DNA of 28,222 bases from a virus. Where the stretch lies: the IMG/VR virus record IMGVR_UViG_3300025703_000015, positions 1 to 28,222 of that record, one strand, 5' to 3'. The stretch's first letter is position 1. The number at the start of each line of letters is the position of its first letter. Shown piece by piece: positions 4,430 through 15,223 of this stretch. The notes beneath the pieces were generated by a model, which saw nothing but the letters and a program-made list of their open reading frames with translations, was not told where the DNA came from and did no database searches. A program made the translations under genes and the position numbers.

Positions 4430-4604
4430 AGGTGAAATCTACGGCGATATCATTCTGTCTCCTTCCGAGATGGAGCGGATGCGTTCGGGAGAGATGATTG
4501 ATACCTATACCGCTCTAGGTAGCCGAAGGTATTATCTGGGAGTGCGCTTAAAAGGAGTATCGGAGTATGTCGAAGAAGAAGACGAAATCGCAAAAGACTA
4601 TTAA
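4404..4604 (+). CDS. small acidic protein, unknown
   Basis: 66 residues from ATG 4404, which follows GGAGGAA with good spacing and lies inside the end of the resolvase gene. The product is rich in Asp, Glu and Ile with a YYLGVRLKG strand near the middle and an acidic EEEDEIAKDY end. It also overlaps the next gene by 38 bases. No family recognised; coupling to rusA suggests early/middle expression. Confidence 0.7.
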   Translation: MRIVLDNIEGEIYGDIILSPSEMERMRSGEMIDTYTALGSRRYYLGVRLKGVSEYVEEEDEIAKDY

Positions 4605-4779
4605 GAAGGCGTTCGATAAGTTTGGTGAAGGAAAGCTTCATTCAGGATCGAAGAAGGGGCCGATTGTGACCAGTAGACCGCAAGCTACGGCAATTGCGTT
4701 AAGTGAAGGGCGTAAAACTGTTCACAAACCCAAGAAAGCTCCCAACCGTCTTTACATCGGGACTGCCAGCGTCGCGTAA
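4567..4779 (+). CDS. small basic protein resembling DUF6496
   Basis: 70 residues. A lysine-rich start (MSKKKTKSQKTIKKAF) is followed by GEGKLHSGSKKGPIV and a QATAIALSEGRK segment. The pattern of a lysine-rich helix, a GKxHSGSKKG turn and an AIALSEAR-type helix resembles the DUF6496 family found in phages and plasmids, whose function is unknown. ATG 4567 is preceded by CGGAG. It overlaps the upstream gene by 38 bases. The match is from memory of the pattern, so moderate confidence. Confidence 0.7.
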   Translation: MSKKKTKSQKTIKKAFDKFGEGKLHSGSKKGPIVTSRPQATAIALSEGRKTVHKPKKAPNRLYIGTASVA

Positions 4780-5361: not shown

Positions 5362-5574
5362 ATGAATAAGCCCATTCCCTTCGCCAAATGTCTTGTGTGC
5401 GGTTTAAAAGCCCACGGTTGCTTTATGCTTGATTTGTGGGAGGAATGTCCCGTCTGTTGTTCACATGAGAAAAGAGGAGACTCGCCTAAAGCCAAATTAA
5501 AACCCGGGTCGTTTCTTTGCAATGATTGTTCTAATAGGATCGAAGTCTGGGAAATCAAGCGTGGATTGCGTTAG
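5362..5574 (+). CDS. small zinc-binding protein with paired CxxC motifs
   Basis: 70 residues. Cysteine pairs are CLVC (10-13), CPVCC (29-33) and CNDC (53-56), plus a Cys at 20, enough for one or two zinc sites. The ribosome binding site is weak (GAG four bases before ATG), and the previous gene ends four bases upstream, so translation is probably coupled. The TAG stop (5572-5574) shares its last base with the first base of tRNA-Ser. No family recognised. Confidence 0.65.
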   Translation: MNKPIPFAKCLVCGLKAHGCFMLDLWEECPVCCSHEKRGDSPKAKLKPGSFLCNDCSNRIEVWEIKRGLR

Positions 5575-5660
5575 GACGGGTGGCAGAGAGGCTTATTGAG
5601 CTTGTCTTGAAAACAAGAACGGGAGAAATTCCGTCGATGGTTCAAATCCTTCCCCGTCCG
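5574..5660 (+). tRNA. tRNA-Ser, anticodon UGA
   Basis: Cloverleaf with long variable arm, as expected for serine. Acceptor stem GGACGGG (5574-5580) pairs with CCCGTCC (5653-5659) and leaves discriminator G. The anticodon stem CTTGT/ACAAG is perfect around loop CTTGAAA, giving anticodon TGA, which reads UCA. The variable arm is a 6-bp stem with a GAAA tetraloop (ACGGGA/TTCCGT, one G-T pair). The T loop is TTCAAAT; the T stem has one T-T mismatch and the D stem is short. CCA is not encoded. The gene follows the preceding stop codon directly and must be cut from the mRNA. Phage tRNAs usually offset codon-use differences with the host. Confidence 0.93.
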
Positions 5661-5675
5661 TTTGTGAAGAGAGTT

Positions 5676-6082: not shown

Positions 6083-6193
6083 ATGGCTGCTAAGAAAAAA
6101 CCAATGAAAAAAGAATCCATGAAAATGATGGAGAAGAAAGAATCTAAAGGAATGAAAAAAGCTATGAAGAAAATGGCTTGTAAGGGGATGTAA
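6083..6193 (+). CDS. 36-residue Lys/Met-rich peptide
   Basis: ATG 6083 is preceded by AGAAGGA at good spacing. The peptide is almost entirely Lys, Met, Glu, Ala and Ser, with repeated MKK and KKxM units (KKPMKKES, GMKKAMKKMA) and one Cys. It should be strongly cationic and may bind nucleic acid or an acidic partner; this is inference. Its TAA overlaps the next ATG (TAATG), so the next gene is translated by reinitiation. Similar Lys/Met peptides occur near phage packaging genes but have no known role. Confidence 0.65.
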   Translation: MAAKKKPMKKESMKMMEKKESKGMKKAMKKMACKGM

Positions 6194-6426
6194 TGAAGAA
6201 AAAGGCTATTAAGAAAGTTGGTGCATCGGGAAAACCATCCAGCAAAACATCAACGGCGACGAAGACGGCTACCGCGACTAAAACCTCAACAGATGCTTAT
6301 ACCCAAGGAAACATTACGGTAACTGGTGGTGCCGGAAAAGGAGCGACTACAGTTAAAATAGGAATTCCTGGAGGCTCTCTGGCTAATCGTTCAAAAAAAG
6401 CCACTAAAGCTAAAGGGAAGAAGTAA
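6193..6426 (+). CDS. basic low-complexity protein with Thr/Lys repeats
   Basis: 77 residues. The N-terminal half is Lys, Ser, Thr and Ala with a short TATKT-type repeat (about 21-32). A glycine-rich middle (TVTGGAGKGATTVKIGIPGG) may form beta strands, and the end is again basic (KKATKAKGKK). The start overlaps the previous stop and the end overlaps the next start, both as TAATG. The composition recalls histone-like or DNA-condensing tails. No family recognised. Confidence 0.65.
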   Translation: MKKKAIKKVGASGKPSSKTSTATKTATATKTSTDAYTQGNITVTGGAGKGATTVKIGIPGGSLANRSKKATKAKGKK

Positions 6427-6539
6427 TGGTTCCGTTCCCCACACCCAAAAACCCCAAGAAGAAGGTCAAGAAAGTGAAGAAAGACGTTCGCCTTACCGCT
6501 GGGGTTTCTCCTAAATTCGTAATGAAGGGGACGCTTTAA
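6426..6539 (+). CDS. 37-residue basic peptide
   Basis: Start ATG overlaps the previous TAA (TAATG) and its own TAA overlaps the next ATG. The core is a Lys/Val repeat (KKKVKKVKKDV) between a Pro-rich start (PFPTPKNP) and a short hydrophobic end. Net charge is very high. Too small for a known family; reality is supported by the unbroken chain of coupled cistrons. Confidence 0.6.
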   Translation: MVPFPTPKNPKKKVKKVKKDVRLTAGVSPKFVMKGTL

Positions 6540-6694
6540 TGGACAAGAAGATGCGCTCTCAGGTCACGAAGCCCATTCGAAAGGCCGAAAAGATTCTTAA
6601 GAAGGCCGAGCATAGCAATGTGAAGCTGGCCAATTACGATGAAAAGGTTCGTGATCCTATGATAGCCAAATACAAAAAGCTTAAAAAGAAATGA
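6539..6694 (+). CDS. 51-residue basic helical protein
   Basis: TAATG-coupled to the upstream cistron and ATGA-coupled to the next. Two lysine-rich helices (PIRKAEKILKKAEH and IAKYKKLKKK) flank an NVKLANYDEKVRDP turn. The amphipathic pattern suits DNA or RNA binding or a packing role. No family recognised. Confidence 0.65.
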   Translation: MDKKMRSQVTKPIRKAEKILKKAEHSNVKLANYDEKVRDPMIAKYKKLKKK

Positions 6695-6939
6695 GAATCA
6701 CTGTAGGAACTCCCAAAAACCGACGCTCTTTATGGCGTTATCAAGATGTACCTACTGATCGTAAGGGTTGGGTGAATAATTTAGATTATCACCCTGCTCC
6801 TTTTGAAATCTGTTGCTTAAAGATAGAAAATAAGTCTAAACCTATTAATGGCTGGTGGACTGGGACTGACTGGTATGGACTGCGACTTAAGTACACAGAT
6901 AATATATTGGGCTGGAAAGTCAATAAAGAGGCCATATGA
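6691..6939 (+). CDS. 82-residue Trp-rich protein, unknown
   Basis: ATGA-coupled at both ends. Unlike its neighbours it is not simply cationic: it has seven Trp, several Tyr and Gly (LWRYQDVP, GWWTGTDWYGLRLK, LGWKV), suggesting a compact beta fold that might bind carbohydrate or nucleic-acid bases. No family recognised. Its place inside the chain of basic mini-genes may be only positional. Confidence 0.65.
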   Translation: MRITVGTPKNRRSLWRYQDVPTDRKGWVNNLDYHPAPFEICCLKIENKSKPINGWWTGTDWYGLRLKYTDNILGWKVNKEAI

Positions 6940-7172
6940 AAGAACCTACAAAGGGGTCGGGCAAACTCTCAAAAGTCCGCTCTAAACCAGGAGAATCTAA
7001 TGCGTTTAAGTACAAAGGTGTCAAATCTTTTGCTGGGCCTGATAAAACATATCCCATCAACACAAAGGCTAGAGGACGCAACGCGCTTGCAAGAGCGCAT
7101 TTTGCAAGTAATCCCTCCTCAATTCGGGCCAAAGTCCATGCGAAATATCCGTCCATAGGCAAGAAAAAATGA
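6936..7172 (+). CDS. 78-residue basic protein with AGP-xxxYPI motif
   Basis: A basic N-terminus is followed by SFAGPDKTYPI (about 31-41), NALARAHFASNP and a KVHAKYPSIGKKK end. The pattern (AGPxxxxPI, alternating Ala/His/Arg helix, AKxPSI) recurs in small conserved phage proteins of unknown function, sometimes next to structural genes. ATGA overlaps link it to both neighbours. Probably a folded helix-turn-helix-like unit with a cationic tail. Confidence 0.7.
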   Translation: MKEPTKGSGKLSKVRSKPGESNAFKYKGVKSFAGPDKTYPINTKARGRNALARAHFASNPSSIRAKVHAKYPSIGKKK

Positions 7173-7324
7173 GCTATTCCCATCCTTTCGGTGAACCAAT
7201 CAAAGTCATAACCAAAAAGCCCAAGGTTAAAGCGAAGACTGATCTTAAAGCTCAGCCTATTAAGAAAAAGCATCGAGCTTCTCAACGCGTAACACAGGGT
7301 AATTACAATGAGTTCTTTGGATAA
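7169..7324 (+). CDS. 51-residue basic peptide
   Basis: ATG 7169 overlaps the preceding stop (ATGA). The middle is lysine-rich (VITKKPKVKAKTDLKAQPIKKKHR) and the end is QGNYNEFFG. Its last 17 bases overlap the start of the methyltransferase gene, so it may couple that gene's translation; the methyltransferase has only a weak site of its own. No family recognised. Confidence 0.6.
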   Translation: MSYSHPFGEPIKVITKKPKVKAKTDLKAQPIKKKHRASQRVTQGNYNEFFG

Positions 7325-8594
7325 GCTATCCTGGAAGACCGAATTCCGAAAGATTAAAGACCTAACTCCTTTCCCTACCAATCCCCGTACCATGTCTAAA
7401 GAGCAAGCTAGACAGCTTATTGACTCATTAGAGAAGTTCGATTATGTTGAACTTGTCGCTATTAACGCCGACAATACTATCCTGGCTGGGCATATGCGGA
7501 TTAAAGCCATGCAACAGATTGGATGGGGGAATATAAGCCTTGAAGTTAGAGTCCCAAACAGACAGCTCACCGATGAAGAAGCGAAGGAGTACGTTATCCG
7601 CAGTAATAAGAATACTGGTGGGTGGGATTTTGATATTCTCGCTAGTGATTTCGACGTGGGTGATCTTCATAATTGGGGCTTTACTGCGGAGGAATTGGCC
7701 GACAATATTCTTGATTTAGGCTCTACTCCCGAAGAAGATTCAAATGAGCTAATGACTCCCCCTAAAGACCCAAAGACTAAGCTTGGAGATATTTATGAAT
7801 TGGGTTCTCATCGGCTTATTTGTGGGGATTCCACTAACGCAGATACTGTTAATTTATTGCTGGATTCGGCGGAGCCTATCTTAATGGTAACTGACCCTCC
7901 TTATGGGGTTAATTATGACCCTAAATGGCGAAAGGATATTAAAGGTAAGCACGGCGTTGCTGCCAGGGCAATGGGTACAGTCCAAAATGATGATCAAGTC
8001 AATTGGGCTTTAGCTTGGCATTTATTCCCAGGTTCAGTTGCTTATGTTTGGCACGCATCCCTCCACACATATGAGGTCTATAAATCCTTGGTGGACTCCG
8101 AATATGACATTATATCTAACATTATTTGGGCTAAACAGCATTTTGCCTTGTCTCGTGGAGACTATCATTGGCAGCACGAACCCTGCTGGTATGCCGTAAA
8201 GAAGGGCCACCCCCACAATTGGCAGGGTGCTAGGGATCAGTCGACGCTTTGGGAAATATCCAATTTAAACGCCTTTGGTGCCAATAAAGAAGAGGGGGGC
8301 GAACGAACAGCCCACTCAACCCAAAAGCCTCTTGAATGTATGTCTAGGCCAATCCAAAACAATACTGAAAAGGGCGACGGTGTTTATGATCCCTTCTTAG
8401 GTTCGGGAACAACATTAATTGCTGCTGAACAATTAGATCGAAAGTGTTATGGTATTGAATTAGACCCAGCTTACTGCGATATTATCGTGGATAGATGGGT
8501 TAAGTTTAGAAAAAAGAACGGTAAGGATGCCGTTGTAATTAAAAATAGTGAAGAAACAAAGGAATTTTATGGCAACGACAAAACCGTTTACTAA
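7308..8594 (+). CDS. ParB-domain/DNA methyltransferase fusion (beta class, N6-A or N4-C)
   Basis: 428 residues. The N-terminal ~130 residues are a ParB/sulfiredoxin-type domain: LTPFPTNPRT, then NTILAGHMRIKAM (56-68; GHMR replaces the usual GHRR) and an ENIxR-like VIRSNKN. The C-terminal part is an amino-methyltransferase with catalytic DPPY (196-199) ahead of the SAM-binding YDPFLGSGTT (360-369), the order of the beta class, which methylates adenine N6 or cytosine N4. GIELDP (374 onward) completes the SAM pocket. Such orphan fusions are known in phages and may protect phage DNA or mark packaging DNA. No restriction endonuclease is adjacent. Confidence 0.9.
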   Translation: MSSLDKLSWKTEFRKIKDLTPFPTNPRTMSKEQARQLIDSLEKFDYVELVAINADNTILAGHMRIKAMQQIGWGNISLEVRVPNRQLTDEEAKEYVIRSNKNTGGWDFDILASDFDVGDLHNWGFTAEELADNILDLGSTPEEDSNELMTPPKDPKTKLGDIYELGSHRLICGDSTNADTVNLLLDSAEPILMVTDPPYGVNYDPKWRKDIKGKHGVAARAMGTVQNDDQVNWALAWHLFPGSVAYVWHASLHTYEVYKSLVDSEYDIISNIIWAKQHFALSRGDYHWQHEPCWYAVKKGHPHNWQGARDQSTLWEISNLNAFGANKEEGGERTAHSTQKPLECMSRPIQNNTEKGDGVYDPFLGSGTTLIAAEQLDRKCYGIELDPAYCDIIVDRWVKFRKKNGKDAVVIKNSEETKEFYGNDKTVY

Positions 8595-8736
8595 AGCACA
8601 ATATAAACAAGCAGAGAAATCAGTGAAAAAAGCAAGAAAAGAGGGCGAAAAAAAAGTATCTGCTCATAATAAATCCCACGCGACCTATCTTAAAGAAAGA
8701 AAGGCGCGATATAAGAAAGAAGGAATAACCGAATAG
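8569..8736 (+). CDS. 55-residue Lys/Ala-rich protein
   Basis: Start ATG 8569 follows AAAGGAA; an in-frame GTG at 8548 lacks a comparable site. The product is helical and strongly basic (KQAEKSVKKARKEGEKKVS, YLKERKARYKKE) with regular Lys/Ala heptads. It overlaps the methyltransferase end and the next gene. It resembles the other basic mini-proteins upstream of the methyltransferase and may share their role. Confidence 0.65.
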   Translation: MATTKPFTKAQYKQAEKSVKKARKEGEKKVSAHNKSHATYLKERKARYKKEGITE

Positions 8737-8912
8737 TGGATGAATTCTACGCAACCCAAATAACAATTAAAGAATCCCCATTGCTATCAAAAATCCGTGT
8801 TACCAAGGCCATCTACAAAAGTTGGGAACATGAACAGAGATATTGGAAGTGGTATGGGAAAACACTTATAAAAGCGATACAAAGGGATTATGGCTCGTCA
8901 ACTAACAGGTAA
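8736..8912 (+). CDS. 58-residue aromatic basic protein, GTG start
   Basis: Opens at GTG 8736, which shares a base with the preceding TAG stop, and ends 23 bases inside the small terminase gene. AAGGA lies about 11 bases upstream. The product contains a Trp/Tyr cluster (SWEHEQRYWKWYGK) and basic residues. The exact fit between two overlapping genes argues it is real; no family recognised. Confidence 0.5.
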   Translation: MDEFYATQITIKESPLLSKIRVTKAIYKSWEHEQRYWKWYGKTLIKAIQRDYGSSTNR

Positions 8913-9393
8913 TCCTTGCGGTCGACCAGAGAAACCAATTGACTGGAGTCAGTTTGAAGGTTTATGCGCATTACAATGTACTCAAGGTGAAATAGCTAAT
9001 ATACTTCATGTTAATGAAGATACAGTTAGATCAAGAGTATTAGATCATTACGGGGAAGATTATTCGGCTGTATATAAAAGGTTTAGTGCACCAGGATTAT
9101 GTAGTGTTAGAAGAAATCAATTTGTTTTATCAAAGAAAAATGCAACGATGGCGATTTGGCTCGGTAAGATATGGCTAAATCAGATTGATCCAGGAATAGA
9201 AAAAATACAGGACAATGGCCTTGCAAACCTCAAAAATGCCCTTAGAGAGATTCTCGACGAAGAGCGAACTAGCGGTTCTGAACGATCCCCTCTGGAGGAT
9301 CAACAACCTCTACTGGATCAAGGATGCAGAAGGCAAGAGGAAGAAATTCAAGCTGAATTGGGCGCAACAGATGCTTTGGGAGGAGATGCATGA
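8890..9393 (+). CDS. terminase small subunit (TerS-like)
   Basis: 167 residues. It begins GNPCGRPEKPIDW, then a helix-turn-helix (about 29-50: CTQGEIANILHVNEDTVRSRV), then a LCSVRRNQFVLSKKNATMAIWLGK block (about 71-94) typical of small terminases. TerS recognises phage DNA for packaging and loads the large subunit. ATG 8890 follows AAAGGG. The last ~60 codons (9215-9393) overlap the TerL gene in another frame, which is long for such genes; the conserved part ends before the overlap, so the tail may be a byproduct of overprinting. Confidence 0.85.
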   Translation: MARQLTGNPCGRPEKPIDWSQFEGLCALQCTQGEIANILHVNEDTVRSRVLDHYGEDYSAVYKRFSAPGLCSVRRNQFVLSKKNATMAIWLGKIWLNQIDPGIEKIQDNGLANLKNALREILDEERTSGSERSPLEDQQPLLDQGCRRQEEEIQAELGATDALGGDA

Positions 9394-10723
9394 CTCGAAC
9401 ATCATCCTTAAAGCGCGTCAGCTCGGAATTACCACCTTCTATTGCATCTATCTCCTCGACCGAACTCTCTGGGAGGAAAACACACAGTCTGGGATTATCG
9501 CGCATACGCTCGATGACGCATCGAACATCTTCACAGACAAACTTAAATACGCGTTCGATCAATTACATCCCGATATACGGAAAATATTTAAGCCCGTGGG
9601 TAATTCCGCAAAGGAACTATCCTTTGCACATGGTAGCACTATCCGTGTCGGTACATCTTTGCGCTCGGCGACTAACCAATATCTCCATATCTCAGAGTTT
9701 GGCAAGATTTGTGCAAAATATCCTGAACGCGCCCGAGAGATTATTACTGGGTCATTAAACACTGTCCATGCTGGGCAAAAGATATTCATTGAATCAACAG
9801 CAGAGGGTAAGGAAGGAGCGTTCTATGAGATGTGCGAAGACGCTCGCAACAACCCTCCTAAATCCTCTCAAGATTTCAAGTTCTTTTTCTTCCCCTGGTG
9901 GAAACATCCTCTCTATACTCAAGGCGTTAAAGCAGAAATCTCCTCTGATTTAAAGGACTACTTCAATAAGCTGCAATTAGAAGGGATTAATTTAACCGAC
10001 CCTCAAAAATGGTGGTATGCAAACAAATACAAGTATCAGAAAGACGACATGTTCCGCGAGTTTCCGTCTAAGCCCGAAGAGGCATTTTCGGCTTCTCAAG
10101 AGGGCTATTGGTATGCCACGGTCATCAAAGAGCTGTACGAGACGGGGCACGTCACGAATGTGGCGTATGATAGGGCTTTACCAGTTCATTGTGCATGGGA
10201 CTTAGGCCAAGCAGACAGTATGTCTATATGGTTTTTTCAAGTTAACCGATCTGATGACATTAATATCATAGATTTCTGGCAAAAGAACAACACTCCTCTG
10301 CATCAAGTCGGGATACTGTTGAAGGAAAAGGGATATAATTATGGTACTCATATTTGGCCTCACGACGCTGCTGCTAGGGATCGCGCTGGCATCACTTTTC
10401 AAAGTCAAGCCAGAGATATTGGTATTACTGGTATTGTACTTGAGCCTCACTCTCTTATTCACGGCATTAGCCTTGTTAAAACAACCCTCCCCAAGTGCTG
10501 GTTCGACCAGACCAAATGCAAAGAGGGACTTAAACTATTGGAGAATTACAAAAAGAAGTGGTCTCCCTCGCTTGGTGGGTGGACAGCAGAGCCAGTTCAT
10601 GATGAGTGTTCCCATTGCGCCGATTCCTTCCGTTATCTTGTTGCAGGAATAAAGAGAGTTGTGTCAGCATCGGGGAGTTTAGAGAACGATTACGCAGCAT
10701 TGAGGAAGTACTTTGGATCATAA
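9215..10723 (+). CDS. terL: terminase large subunit (packaging ATPase-nuclease)
   Basis: 502 residues. The motor pumps DNA into the procapsid and cuts it. ATPase marks are LNWAQQ (47-52), Walker-A-like LKARQLGITT (65-74), Walker B YLHISEFG (156-163) and coupling motif FIESTAEG (191-198). The nuclease domain follows with AWDLG (D329), PHDAA (D384) and CADSFRY (D470), the three acidic metal ligands. The Walker A lacks the usual GK[ST], as in many phage terminases of this group. Start taken as ATG 9215 with AGGA upstream; ATG 9236 is possible. The portal gene is next among large genes, as in most phages. Confidence 0.95.
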   Translation: MALQTSKMPLERFSTKSELAVLNDPLWRINNLYWIKDAEGKRKKFKLNWAQQMLWEEMHDSNIILKARQLGITTFYCIYLLDRTLWEENTQSGIIAHTLDDASNIFTDKLKYAFDQLHPDIRKIFKPVGNSAKELSFAHGSTIRVGTSLRSATNQYLHISEFGKICAKYPERAREIITGSLNTVHAGQKIFIESTAEGKEGAFYEMCEDARNNPPKSSQDFKFFFFPWWKHPLYTQGVKAEISSDLKDYFNKLQLEGINLTDPQKWWYANKYKYQKDDMFREFPSKPEEAFSASQEGYWYATVIKELYETGHVTNVAYDRALPVHCAWDLGQADSMSIWFFQVNRSDDINIIDFWQKNNTPLHQVGILLKEKGYNYGTHIWPHDAAARDRAGITFQSQARDIGITGIVLEPHSLIHGISLVKTTLPKCWFDQTKCKEGLKLLENYKKKWSPSLGGWTAEPVHDECSHCADSFRYLVAGIKRVVSASGSLENDYAALRKYFGS

Positions 10724-13782: not shown

Positions 13783-13980
13783 ATGAAAGAATCAATGTCA
13801 AAAGCCGGCTACACGCAAGGTGCGATGGAGCCTAAAGTAAAAGACTACCAAAAACCTGCTTCAGACTTCTCACAAGAAGGCTTTAGCAAAACTCTTGAGT
13901 ATGTAGAGCGTCAAGACGCTTTCCAAGCGAAAGAAGCGAAAGAAATTAAATCTCAAGCTTATAAAGGCCGTTACTCATGA
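13783..13980 (+). CDS. 65-residue Lys/Gln/Glu-rich protein, unknown
   Basis: ATG 13783 follows GGAAGA with suitable spacing. The product is hydrophilic with SKAGYTQGAMEPKVKDY at the start and an AFQAKEAKEIKSQAYKGRYS basic end. No family recognised. It is the first rightward gene after the HNH insertion and is ATGA-coupled to the next one. Confidence 0.65.
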   Translation: MKESMSKAGYTQGAMEPKVKDYQKPASDFSQEGFSKTLEYVERQDAFQAKEAKEIKSQAYKGRYS

Positions 13981-14147
13981 GCAAAGCAAATAAAGTAGAG
14001 GTTCAGAAAGGTGCTAATGATGCTCGTCTTAAGACCCAAGGGACTATGACTCATCATCAAGCAATCTCTCAGAAAACAGAGGAAAATGCCCTTCGTAGGA
14101 GTGGTCAAACTCTTACATGGCATGAGCCGAAAACTTCTAGAAAATAA
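13977..14147 (+). CDS. 56-residue hydrophilic protein, unknown
   Basis: ATG 13977 overlaps the preceding stop as ATGA. The product has no hydrophobic segment and is rich in Lys, Thr, Gln, Ala and His (TQGTMTHHQAISQ). It ends TAA 14145-14147, just before a 12-bp hairpin. No family recognised. Confidence 0.6.
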   Translation: MSKANKVEVQKGANDARLKTQGTMTHHQAISQKTEENALRRSGQTLTWHEPKTSRK

Positions 14148-14742: not shown

Positions 14743-14937
14743 ATGAACGATAATCAGAAAGCAGCACATGAGATTCTTCTTAAATCCTTTGAGAAGATGA
14801 ACGAAAACCTTCTGTCAGGAGCGACAGATTCAATTGAATACGGTTATATGAAGAAAATATTTCTGAGTAGTCTTCATGCAATCGAGCAATGGTATTATGT
14901 AGATTGTGGTGATGAGGAGGATAATTACGATGACTGA
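14743..14937 (+). CDS. 64-residue acidic protein, unknown
   Basis: ATG 14743 follows GAGGA at ideal spacing and is preferred. The same frame is open back to ATG 14608 (109 residues), four bases after the previous stop, but without a ribosome binding site. The product is helical and ends with a very acidic DCGDEEDNYDD. Its last eight bases overlap the GroES-like start. No family recognised. Confidence 0.6.
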   Translation: MNDNQKAAHEILLKSFEKMNENLLSGATDSIEYGYMKKIFLSSLHAIEQWYYVDCGDEEDNYDD

Positions 14938-15223
14938 GAAGATCATTCCCTTTGGAAAGCGAGTATTAGCCCTTAGGATTAAGCCAGCCGAAAAGACTGC
15001 AAGCGGTATTATTATCCCCGATTCAAGCCAGAAGAAGCAGGATAGGGCGGTAGTTGAGGCGATTGCAGATGAATTAATGGACTCAAATGGAATCCCTTCT
15101 ATTCCAATTCATATAGGAGCCACCGTATTGATAGAAAAATATGCTGGTAGAGAAGTAGACGGTTATCCTGATTTAGTGCTTCTTAAATTAGATGAGATTA
15201 TGGGCTTGGTTGAGAATGGATGA
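14930..15223 (+). CDS. GroES-like co-chaperonin (Cpn10)
   Basis: 97 residues, the normal Cpn10 length. It starts KIIPFGKRVLAL, then TASGIIIPDSS (23-33), where III (27-29) fits the GroEL-binding tripeptide of the mobile loop, then AVVEAI and a C-terminal GATVLIEKYAGREV and LVLLKLDEIMGLV. Phage co-chaperonins such as T4 gp31 replace host GroES to fold the major capsid protein. GAGGAGG nine bases before ATG 14930 predicts strong expression. No GroEL gene is seen, so it would work with host GroEL. Its place between portal and capsid genes supports a role in head assembly. Confidence 0.9.
   Translation: MTEKIIPFGKRVLALRIKPAEKTASGIIIPDSSQKKQDRAVVEAIADELMDSNGIPSIPIHIGATVLIEKYAGREVDGYPDLVLLKLDEIMGLVENG

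Follow-up and report, generated by a model that had tools for sequence, protein, structure and literature searches.

A cassette of small, mostly basic, overlapping genes ahead of phage terminase genes: candidate head and packaging accessory proteins

The overlapping gene chain

In this work, we have examined a 28,222-bp IMG/VR fragment (the window) in which seven short ORFs, m1 to m7, occupy positions 6083-7324. All seven lie where the original prediction had placed them, joined by TAATG or ATGA overlaps, and the chain continues, again as predicted, by overlaps through a ParB-methyltransferase gene, two more small genes (m8 and m9) and the genes for both terminase subunits to position 10723. 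These genes, together with a DUF6496 gene lying upstream, are the following.

4567-4779, + strand: DUF6496 (PF20106) lysine-rich protein, 70 aa, +15, just downstream of RusA
6083-6193, + strand: m1, 36 aa, 39% Lys, Met/Lys-rich, net charge +11, AAGGA ribosome-binding site
6193-6426, + strand: m2, 77 aa, net charge +17, conserved core TKTSTDAYTQGNITVTGGAGKGATTVKIGLPGGSL
6426-6539, + strand: m3, 37 aa, 27% Lys, net charge +10, coupled ORF with ribosome-binding site
6539-6694, + strand: m4, 51 aa, 29% Lys, net charge +12, predicted single long helix
6691-6939, + strand: m5, 82 aa, tryptophan-rich (GWWTG..W), weakly basic (+6)
6936-7172, + strand: m6, 78 aa, net charge +17, small folded domain in the model
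7169-7324, + strand: m7, 51 aa, net charge +9, coupled ORF
7308-8594, + strand: ParB-N plus N6/N4 DNA methyltransferase, 428 aa
8569-8736, + strand: m8, 55 aa, about 25% Lys, +11, coupled ORF
8736-8912, + strand: m9, 58 aa, GTG start, mildly basic, 46% identical to an ORF of locus L168
8890-9393, + strand: terminase small subunit (TerS), phrog_309 (E 0.0016), homologues in L082, L014 and L003
9215-10723, + strand: terminase large subunit (TerL), phrog_2 (E 3.2e-32), 89 viral relatives

Within m1-m7 there are three TAATG joins (1-nt overlap) and three ATGA joins (4-nt overlap). The overlaps that follow measure 17 nt between m7 and the ParB-methyltransferase gene, 26 nt between the latter and m8, 1 nt between m8 and m9, 23 nt between m9 and TerS, and 179 nt between TerS and TerL. 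When chains were restricted to ATG-started ORFs of 35 codons or more joined by overlaps of 1 or 4 nt, the longest in the window had seven members, the maximum in 300 dinucleotide shuffles was three, and the longest in the other phage loci compared by the same test was six. Usable ribosome-binding sites precede the first and sixth genes among others and are weak at some joins, which would be compatible with translational coupling of m1-m7. Promoter and terminator scans returned counts close to the shuffled expectation, with no clear promoter ahead of 6083. As had been foreseen, six of the seven products are very cationic (+9 to +17), m5 being the exception, and the pI values of m1-m7 range from 9.6 to 10.9. 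The ParB-methyltransferase matches phrog_498 (ParB-like/DNA methyltransferase) over residues 10-418, across both domains (E 3.4e-120); in Pfam, N6_N4_Mtase is matched with an E of 6.9e-25, and the match to ParB_N alone is weak (E 0.16).

Two further features of the region were observed. The start of TerL well inside TerS is conserved (9215-9393 in the window; 5518-5672, about 155 nt, in L082; 6085-6206, 122 nt, in L083), and a tRNA-Ser gene (anticodon TGA) lies upstream of the cassette at 5574-5660 of the window, directly after a small cysteine-rich ORF.

Coding status of the mini-genes

Are these short frames genes? The chain might be made up mostly of coupled ORFs that have no function, being frames of low complexity, rich in lysine, on an A-rich coding strand. 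A-rich sequence does favour Lys codons, and four of the small ORFs (m1, m3, m7 and m8) are without homologues. Against this stand the length of the chain, which exceeds that of the shuffles, and the way in which its members change. Both m2 and m4 are under purifying selection, with a dN/dS of about 0.1 (dN 0.13-0.19; dS 1.3-2.6, saturated in several pairs), the differences in m2, m4, m5 and m6 fall mainly at third codon positions, and long runs of invariant residues mark the m2 core and the m4 helix in the family alignments. Taken with the homologues described below, this comparative evidence establishes m2, m4, m5 and m6 as genuine genes. For these four the non-functional reading is largely refuted, and for the chain as a whole we consider it very improbable.

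Homologues of m2 were found at 15 loci, with identity up to 79% across the full length; in L231 the m2 core is embedded in a 340-aa protein. The m4 family comprises 28 viral loci and has 14 invariant residues, including D34, E35, R38, D39, P40 and I42, and the AF2 model of m4 (pLDDT 80) is one long helix. The m5 family has 13-15 members, among them a copy in L082 that is 56% identical and lies at the same position; the viral scan with m5 confirmed no relatives, the family members having come from loci fetched otherwise. For m6 there are 25 homologous loci plus further members, and its model (pLDDT 79.5) has short strands and helices at 44-56 and 60-70. No homologue was found for m1 or in the search with m3, the scan of viral contigs with m7 gave none, and the viral scan with m8 confirmed no relatives; these four sequences are not traceable because they are too short or too repetitive, and what supports them is position and coupling. 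Short Lys-rich ORFs do stand at the place of m1 in L082 and L087, with a resemblance to m1 that is compositional. A comparison of m4 with 84,980 prokaryote genomes gave 35 pattern matches, none of them confirmed, and so no host is assigned. Neither m2, m4, m5 nor DUF6496 matched cultured phages, and the PDB sequence search with m4 and m2 returned nothing meaningful.

Close relatives and the two genomic slots

The three nearest informative relatives by TerL, L082, L087 and L083, share the gene order RusA - acidic 64-69 aa protein - DUF6496 - ... - ParB - ... - TerL. Ahead of ParB, L082 carries a 41-aa Lys-rich ORF and m5, L087 a 46-aa Lys-rich ORF and m4, and L083, with homologous head and packaging genes, none of the seven mini-genes. 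In all three the ParB position is taken by a ParB-only gene of about 160-180 aa without the methyltransferase domain (L082:4167-4658, L087:4904-5383, L083:5179-5718); judging from these sequences, the domain is gained or lost among the closest relatives. Many m4, m6 and m2 loci also have no gene of the ParB-methyltransferase type. The differing subsets and the ParB-only genes of the three relatives thus indicate that the mini-genes form no fixed set and do not depend on the methyltransferase. The original prediction had spoken of a fixed-ratio set with a functional tie to the DNA-modifying enzyme, and neither proposal was borne out. It had also named loss of the mini-genes beside retained neighbours as evidence against itself; such a loss is seen in L083 for the whole set, while m2, m4 and m6 are individually conserved elsewhere.

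The TerL genes of two of these relatives have features of their own. In L087 (5917-8207) a 198-aa ORF separates two pieces of TerL, which may point to a homing-endonuclease intron, and in L082 (5518-8010) the TerL frame of 830 aa has an extra C-terminal part beyond the terminase match.

Where do the homologues lie? Two intervals recur: slot 1, from RusA to the ParB-methyltransferase or terminase genes, as in the window, and slot 2, from the portal to the scaffold or major capsid protein (MCP) gene. Each of m2, m4, m5, m6 and DUF6496 is found in both. Together they make up a common pool of small and for the most part basic genes, combined differently from phage to phage, with DUF6496 as an outlying member. 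DUF6496, of which ORF 4567-4779 is a member (PF20106, E 8.6e-8, 32.9 bits against a cut-off of 24), is a separate family from m1-m7, also without assigned function, and lies 1.3 kb upstream of the chain; its homologues stand upstream of ParB in L082, L087 and L083, and in the portal-scaffold interval in L195, L230 and L232. Homologues of m6 occur between portal and scaffold/MCP in L166, L195, L197 and L199, the L199 copy being fused to DUF6496, and after the MCP in L190. They are also near portal, head or terminase genes in distant phages (portal/head in L202, L206 and L209), and a PHROG scan of 91 m6 neighbours returned terminase, portal, major head protein and head maturation protease at the top; the m6 of Streptomyces phage JustBecause (gp232) has no head genes adjoining. 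For m2, the place is between portal and scaffold/MCP or directly after the portal in L220, L221, L224, L228, L229, L230, L232 and L234, and after the MCP in L223, a slot shared with the m6 of L190; a few m2 copies are near TerL. The m4 genes lie mostly between RusA/replication genes and the methyltransferase or TerS, with replication/RusA, methyltransferase and terminase genes, not capsid genes, as their main neighbours, and between portal and scaffold/MCP in L166 and L181.

The same small genes travel together. L166 has the order portal - Lys-rich - m4 - m6 - scaffold - MCP and L163 the order Lys-rich - m4 - m6 - methyltransferase - TerS, that is, the same trio in the other slot. A Lys-rich ORF stands just upstream of m4 at 10 of 21 distinct loci, two of these ten ORFs being members of other basic families, versus 2.3% for other small genes (p 1e-11). 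Most portal-scaffold examples were retrieved with the mini-genes themselves as queries; among nine portal-scaffold slots reached through TerL, three held small basic genes, and two of the three are near-identical. The slot before the methyltransferase or TerS is not basic in general, since basic genes there were not enriched (25% versus 23% background), and the portal-scaffold slot of the window contains a pair of small genes, neither of them strongly basic. Because of these sampling limits, we claim a preference of these families, wherever they occur, for head and packaging intervals; we do not claim that basic genes are a general feature of such intervals.

Several other genes in or near these slots may be recorded. 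Another Lys-rich family (MDKKI...KADKKRDK), which is related to m4 at the profile level, occurs in both slots (L002:4865-4999, L003:5086-5220, L008:7246-7362, L086:8723-8869, L227:3735-3869), and in L017 (5139-5765) the RusA frame runs on into a Lys-rich tail of the MDKKI type and may represent a fusion. Right after the portal, the window has two coupled small genes (13783-13980 and 13977-14147) that are kept in L083, L084, L085, L086 and L087; in L084-L086 one of the two has a His/Lys-rich N-terminal extension. A GroES-like co-chaperonin gene (phrog_3188, E 5.8e-13) lies between portal and scaffold at 14906-15223 of the window. In several phages m4 is followed by a gene for a secreted-looking protein of 270-420 aa, in most of them before the methyltransferase or TerS (L165:5219-6478, L171:5220-6278, L174:1912-2889, L176:5567-6382, L187:5181-6203, L189:2345-3376). 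In the cultured Tunturiibacter phage Tunturi_2 (L217:5753-6561, gp25-gp29), the m6 homologue gp26 belongs to a run of small genes that overlap one another, not far from endolysin and structural genes. Klebsiella phage MY01 is another isolate with an m6 or m2 homologue.

What stands of the earlier interpretation, its fixed set and its methyltransferase tie apart, is the membership of the mini-genes in the packaging/head module: their homologues adjoin portal, scaffold, capsid and terminase genes, and m6 recurs as a domain within a virion cargo protein, as described below. For m2 and m6 this link to the head module is well supported. It bears on the proposal that the peptides serve host takeover or counter-defence and are encoded in a variable accessory locus that merely happens to be in the late region. 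Subsets do differ between close relatives, as with accessory and arms-race genes, and the T4 internal protein IPI is an anti-restriction protein (PMC9026906); yet homologues of m2 and m6 appear repeatedly in head-gene intervals, which would be unusual for early takeover genes, and we regard this proposal as unlikely.

The m6 domain, internal head proteins and DNA condensation

The m6 protein matches phrog_16160 (E 1.6e-7), as do 21 of 26 members of its family, and scores 13.4 bits against DUF6582 (PF20223), below the gathering cut-off of 27.3; seven of the 26 relatives match DUF6582 (E <= 0.01). These are related sequences, and both families are without assigned function; a literature search for DUF6496 and DUF6582 found no paper. 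In crAss-like phages, tblastn with m6 gave matches of 54-56% identity inside gp45. A profile of 26 viral m6 proteins hit residues 268-329 of crAss001 gp45 with an E of 2.2e-13 as its sole significant PDB match; gp45 was excluded from this profile, which makes it an independent test, E-values from a profile containing gp45 being inflated. crAss001 gp45 is cargo protein 1 (C1), a virion cargo/ejection protein, with residues 214-245 in the tail barrel and residues 425-552 bound to the portal inside the capsid. Mass spectrometry of virions found its peptides 275-300 and 307-320, and the authors of that study expect gp45 to be ejected and to contribute to the transmembrane channel (PMC10172136). 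The m6-like stretch therefore falls in the unresolved link between the tail-barrel and portal-bound segments. The likeness is confined to gp45 268-329: m6 is a stand-alone protein, and the remainder of gp45 (842 aa here) is not in m6.

Structure searches with the m6 model gave no Foldseek match in the PDB. Among viral models, Foldseek matched a protein of an uncultured phage and a protein of Marseillevirus LCMAC101, annotated as a 2-cysteine adaptor (37% identity, E 3e-6); the similarity to giant-virus proteins also includes Sylvanvirus. Two other candidates were set aside, a match of m6 to cytochrome c oxidase in the PDB sequence search (E about 0.1, chance) and a weak similarity of an 'IKHPGAL' family to gp45 391-418 (whole-protein E 0.2).

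The gp45 match bears on a further reading, in which the mini-proteins serve assembly or packaging without ever entering the mature particle; during morphogenesis they would act on scaffold, portal, terminase or replicating DNA. The slots, adjoining terminase or lying between portal and scaffold, would suit such a role, and the long helix predicted for m4 could bind a partner. The m6 domain, however, is kept inside a cargo protein of the mature crAss001 virion, and we are inclined to doubt this reading, while giving it some weight.

The closest functional counterpart of the cassette is offered by the T4 internal proteins IPI, IPII and IPIII. Both systems comprise several small basic proteins that are produced, presumably so in the cassette, along with the head genes, and that are poorly conserved, relatives having other basic proteins in their place (PMC9026906). 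The T4 proteins are present at about 360 copies each, bind DNA at low salt, are packaged and ejected, and are largely dispensable, IPIII helping head assembly (PMC9026906); the cassette is likened to them by analogy. No homology to m1-m7 was detectable in the T4 internal proteins. A shared N-terminal capsid-targeting propeptide of the T4 type was not found across m1-m7, whose N-termini (MAAKKK, MKKKAI, MVPFPT, MDKKMR, MRITVG, MKEPTK and MSYSHP) share only lysines, and the gp21-type cleavage motif ([LI]xE or [LIV]xE[AGS]) is absent from all seven. The likeness is therefore one of analogy and not of membership.

Could the basic peptides instead coat or compact the genome for packaging, in the manner of protamines? 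Their high net charge, the adjoining terminase genes and the low-salt DNA binding of the T4 proteins speak for it. Nevertheless, the seven peptides sum to +82, and a 38-kb genome has about 76,000 phosphates (the relatives' contigs are 37-39 kb), so that some 10 copies of each would neutralise about 1% of the phosphates, and each would have to be present in hundreds of copies to make a difference. T4-like copy numbers would reach roughly a third of the phosphates at an estimated cost of about 16 MDa of protein, more than a head built for such a genome could readily take. Bulk condensation or charge neutralisation by the seven is thus unlikely. The set is moreover missing from L083 despite homologous head and packaging genes, the T4 counterparts can be dispensed with, and a paper on chloroviruses sees no evidence for a large share of basic proteins in neutralising the dsDNA of phages (PMC3281028). 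Chlorovirus virions do contain basic DNA-associated proteins (PMC3281028); these and protamine-like proteins resemble the mini-proteins in being small and basic, and no sequence relation to them was found, nor any protamine- or histone-like family match for m1-m7 in Pfam, PHROG or NCBIfam. We consider the protamine-like reading quite unlikely.

What we propose instead is a polycistronic cassette encoding small accessory proteins of the head or packaging module, most of them basic and probably internal-head or ejected peptides, a reading whose chances we judge evenly balanced. A literature search for such cassettes of basic head proteins found nothing on them. Its genes belong to a pool whose members podovirus-like relatives swap across the two slots; the sharing of the pool and the use of both slots are shown by the comparisons above. 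Its products would be made together with the terminase and head proteins and would enter the prohead near the portal or the DNA, where their lysine-rich surfaces may bind DNA or head proteins; some might then be ejected with the genome, and they could aid head assembly or early infection, as T4 IPI-IPIII do, and would not be expected to act as the main DNA counter-ions. We infer the virion location, DNA binding and ejection of the mini-proteins from the gene neighbourhoods, the m6 domain and the T4 analogy. More tentatively, it is possible that m2, m4, m6, DUF6496 and others belong to a widespread, undescribed pool of T4-IP-like internal, ejected proteins of podovirus-like phages of roughly 37-40 kb, shuffled as a cassette between the two slots, with m6 also built into the crassvirus ejection protein and Foldseek hinting at giant-virus proteins.

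Phage proteins this small tend to be passed over when no function is assigned to them. At least four families in the present set, rare or absent in the cultured-phage collection searched, are conserved, travel together and lie next to head genes; m6, one of the four, forms part of a virion ejection protein whose structure is known. The mini-gene families are direct targets for virion proteomics. If the proposal is true, many uncultivated podovirus-like phages would inject variable sets of basic peptides into their hosts, and the T4-type strategy would exist outside the T4-like phages.
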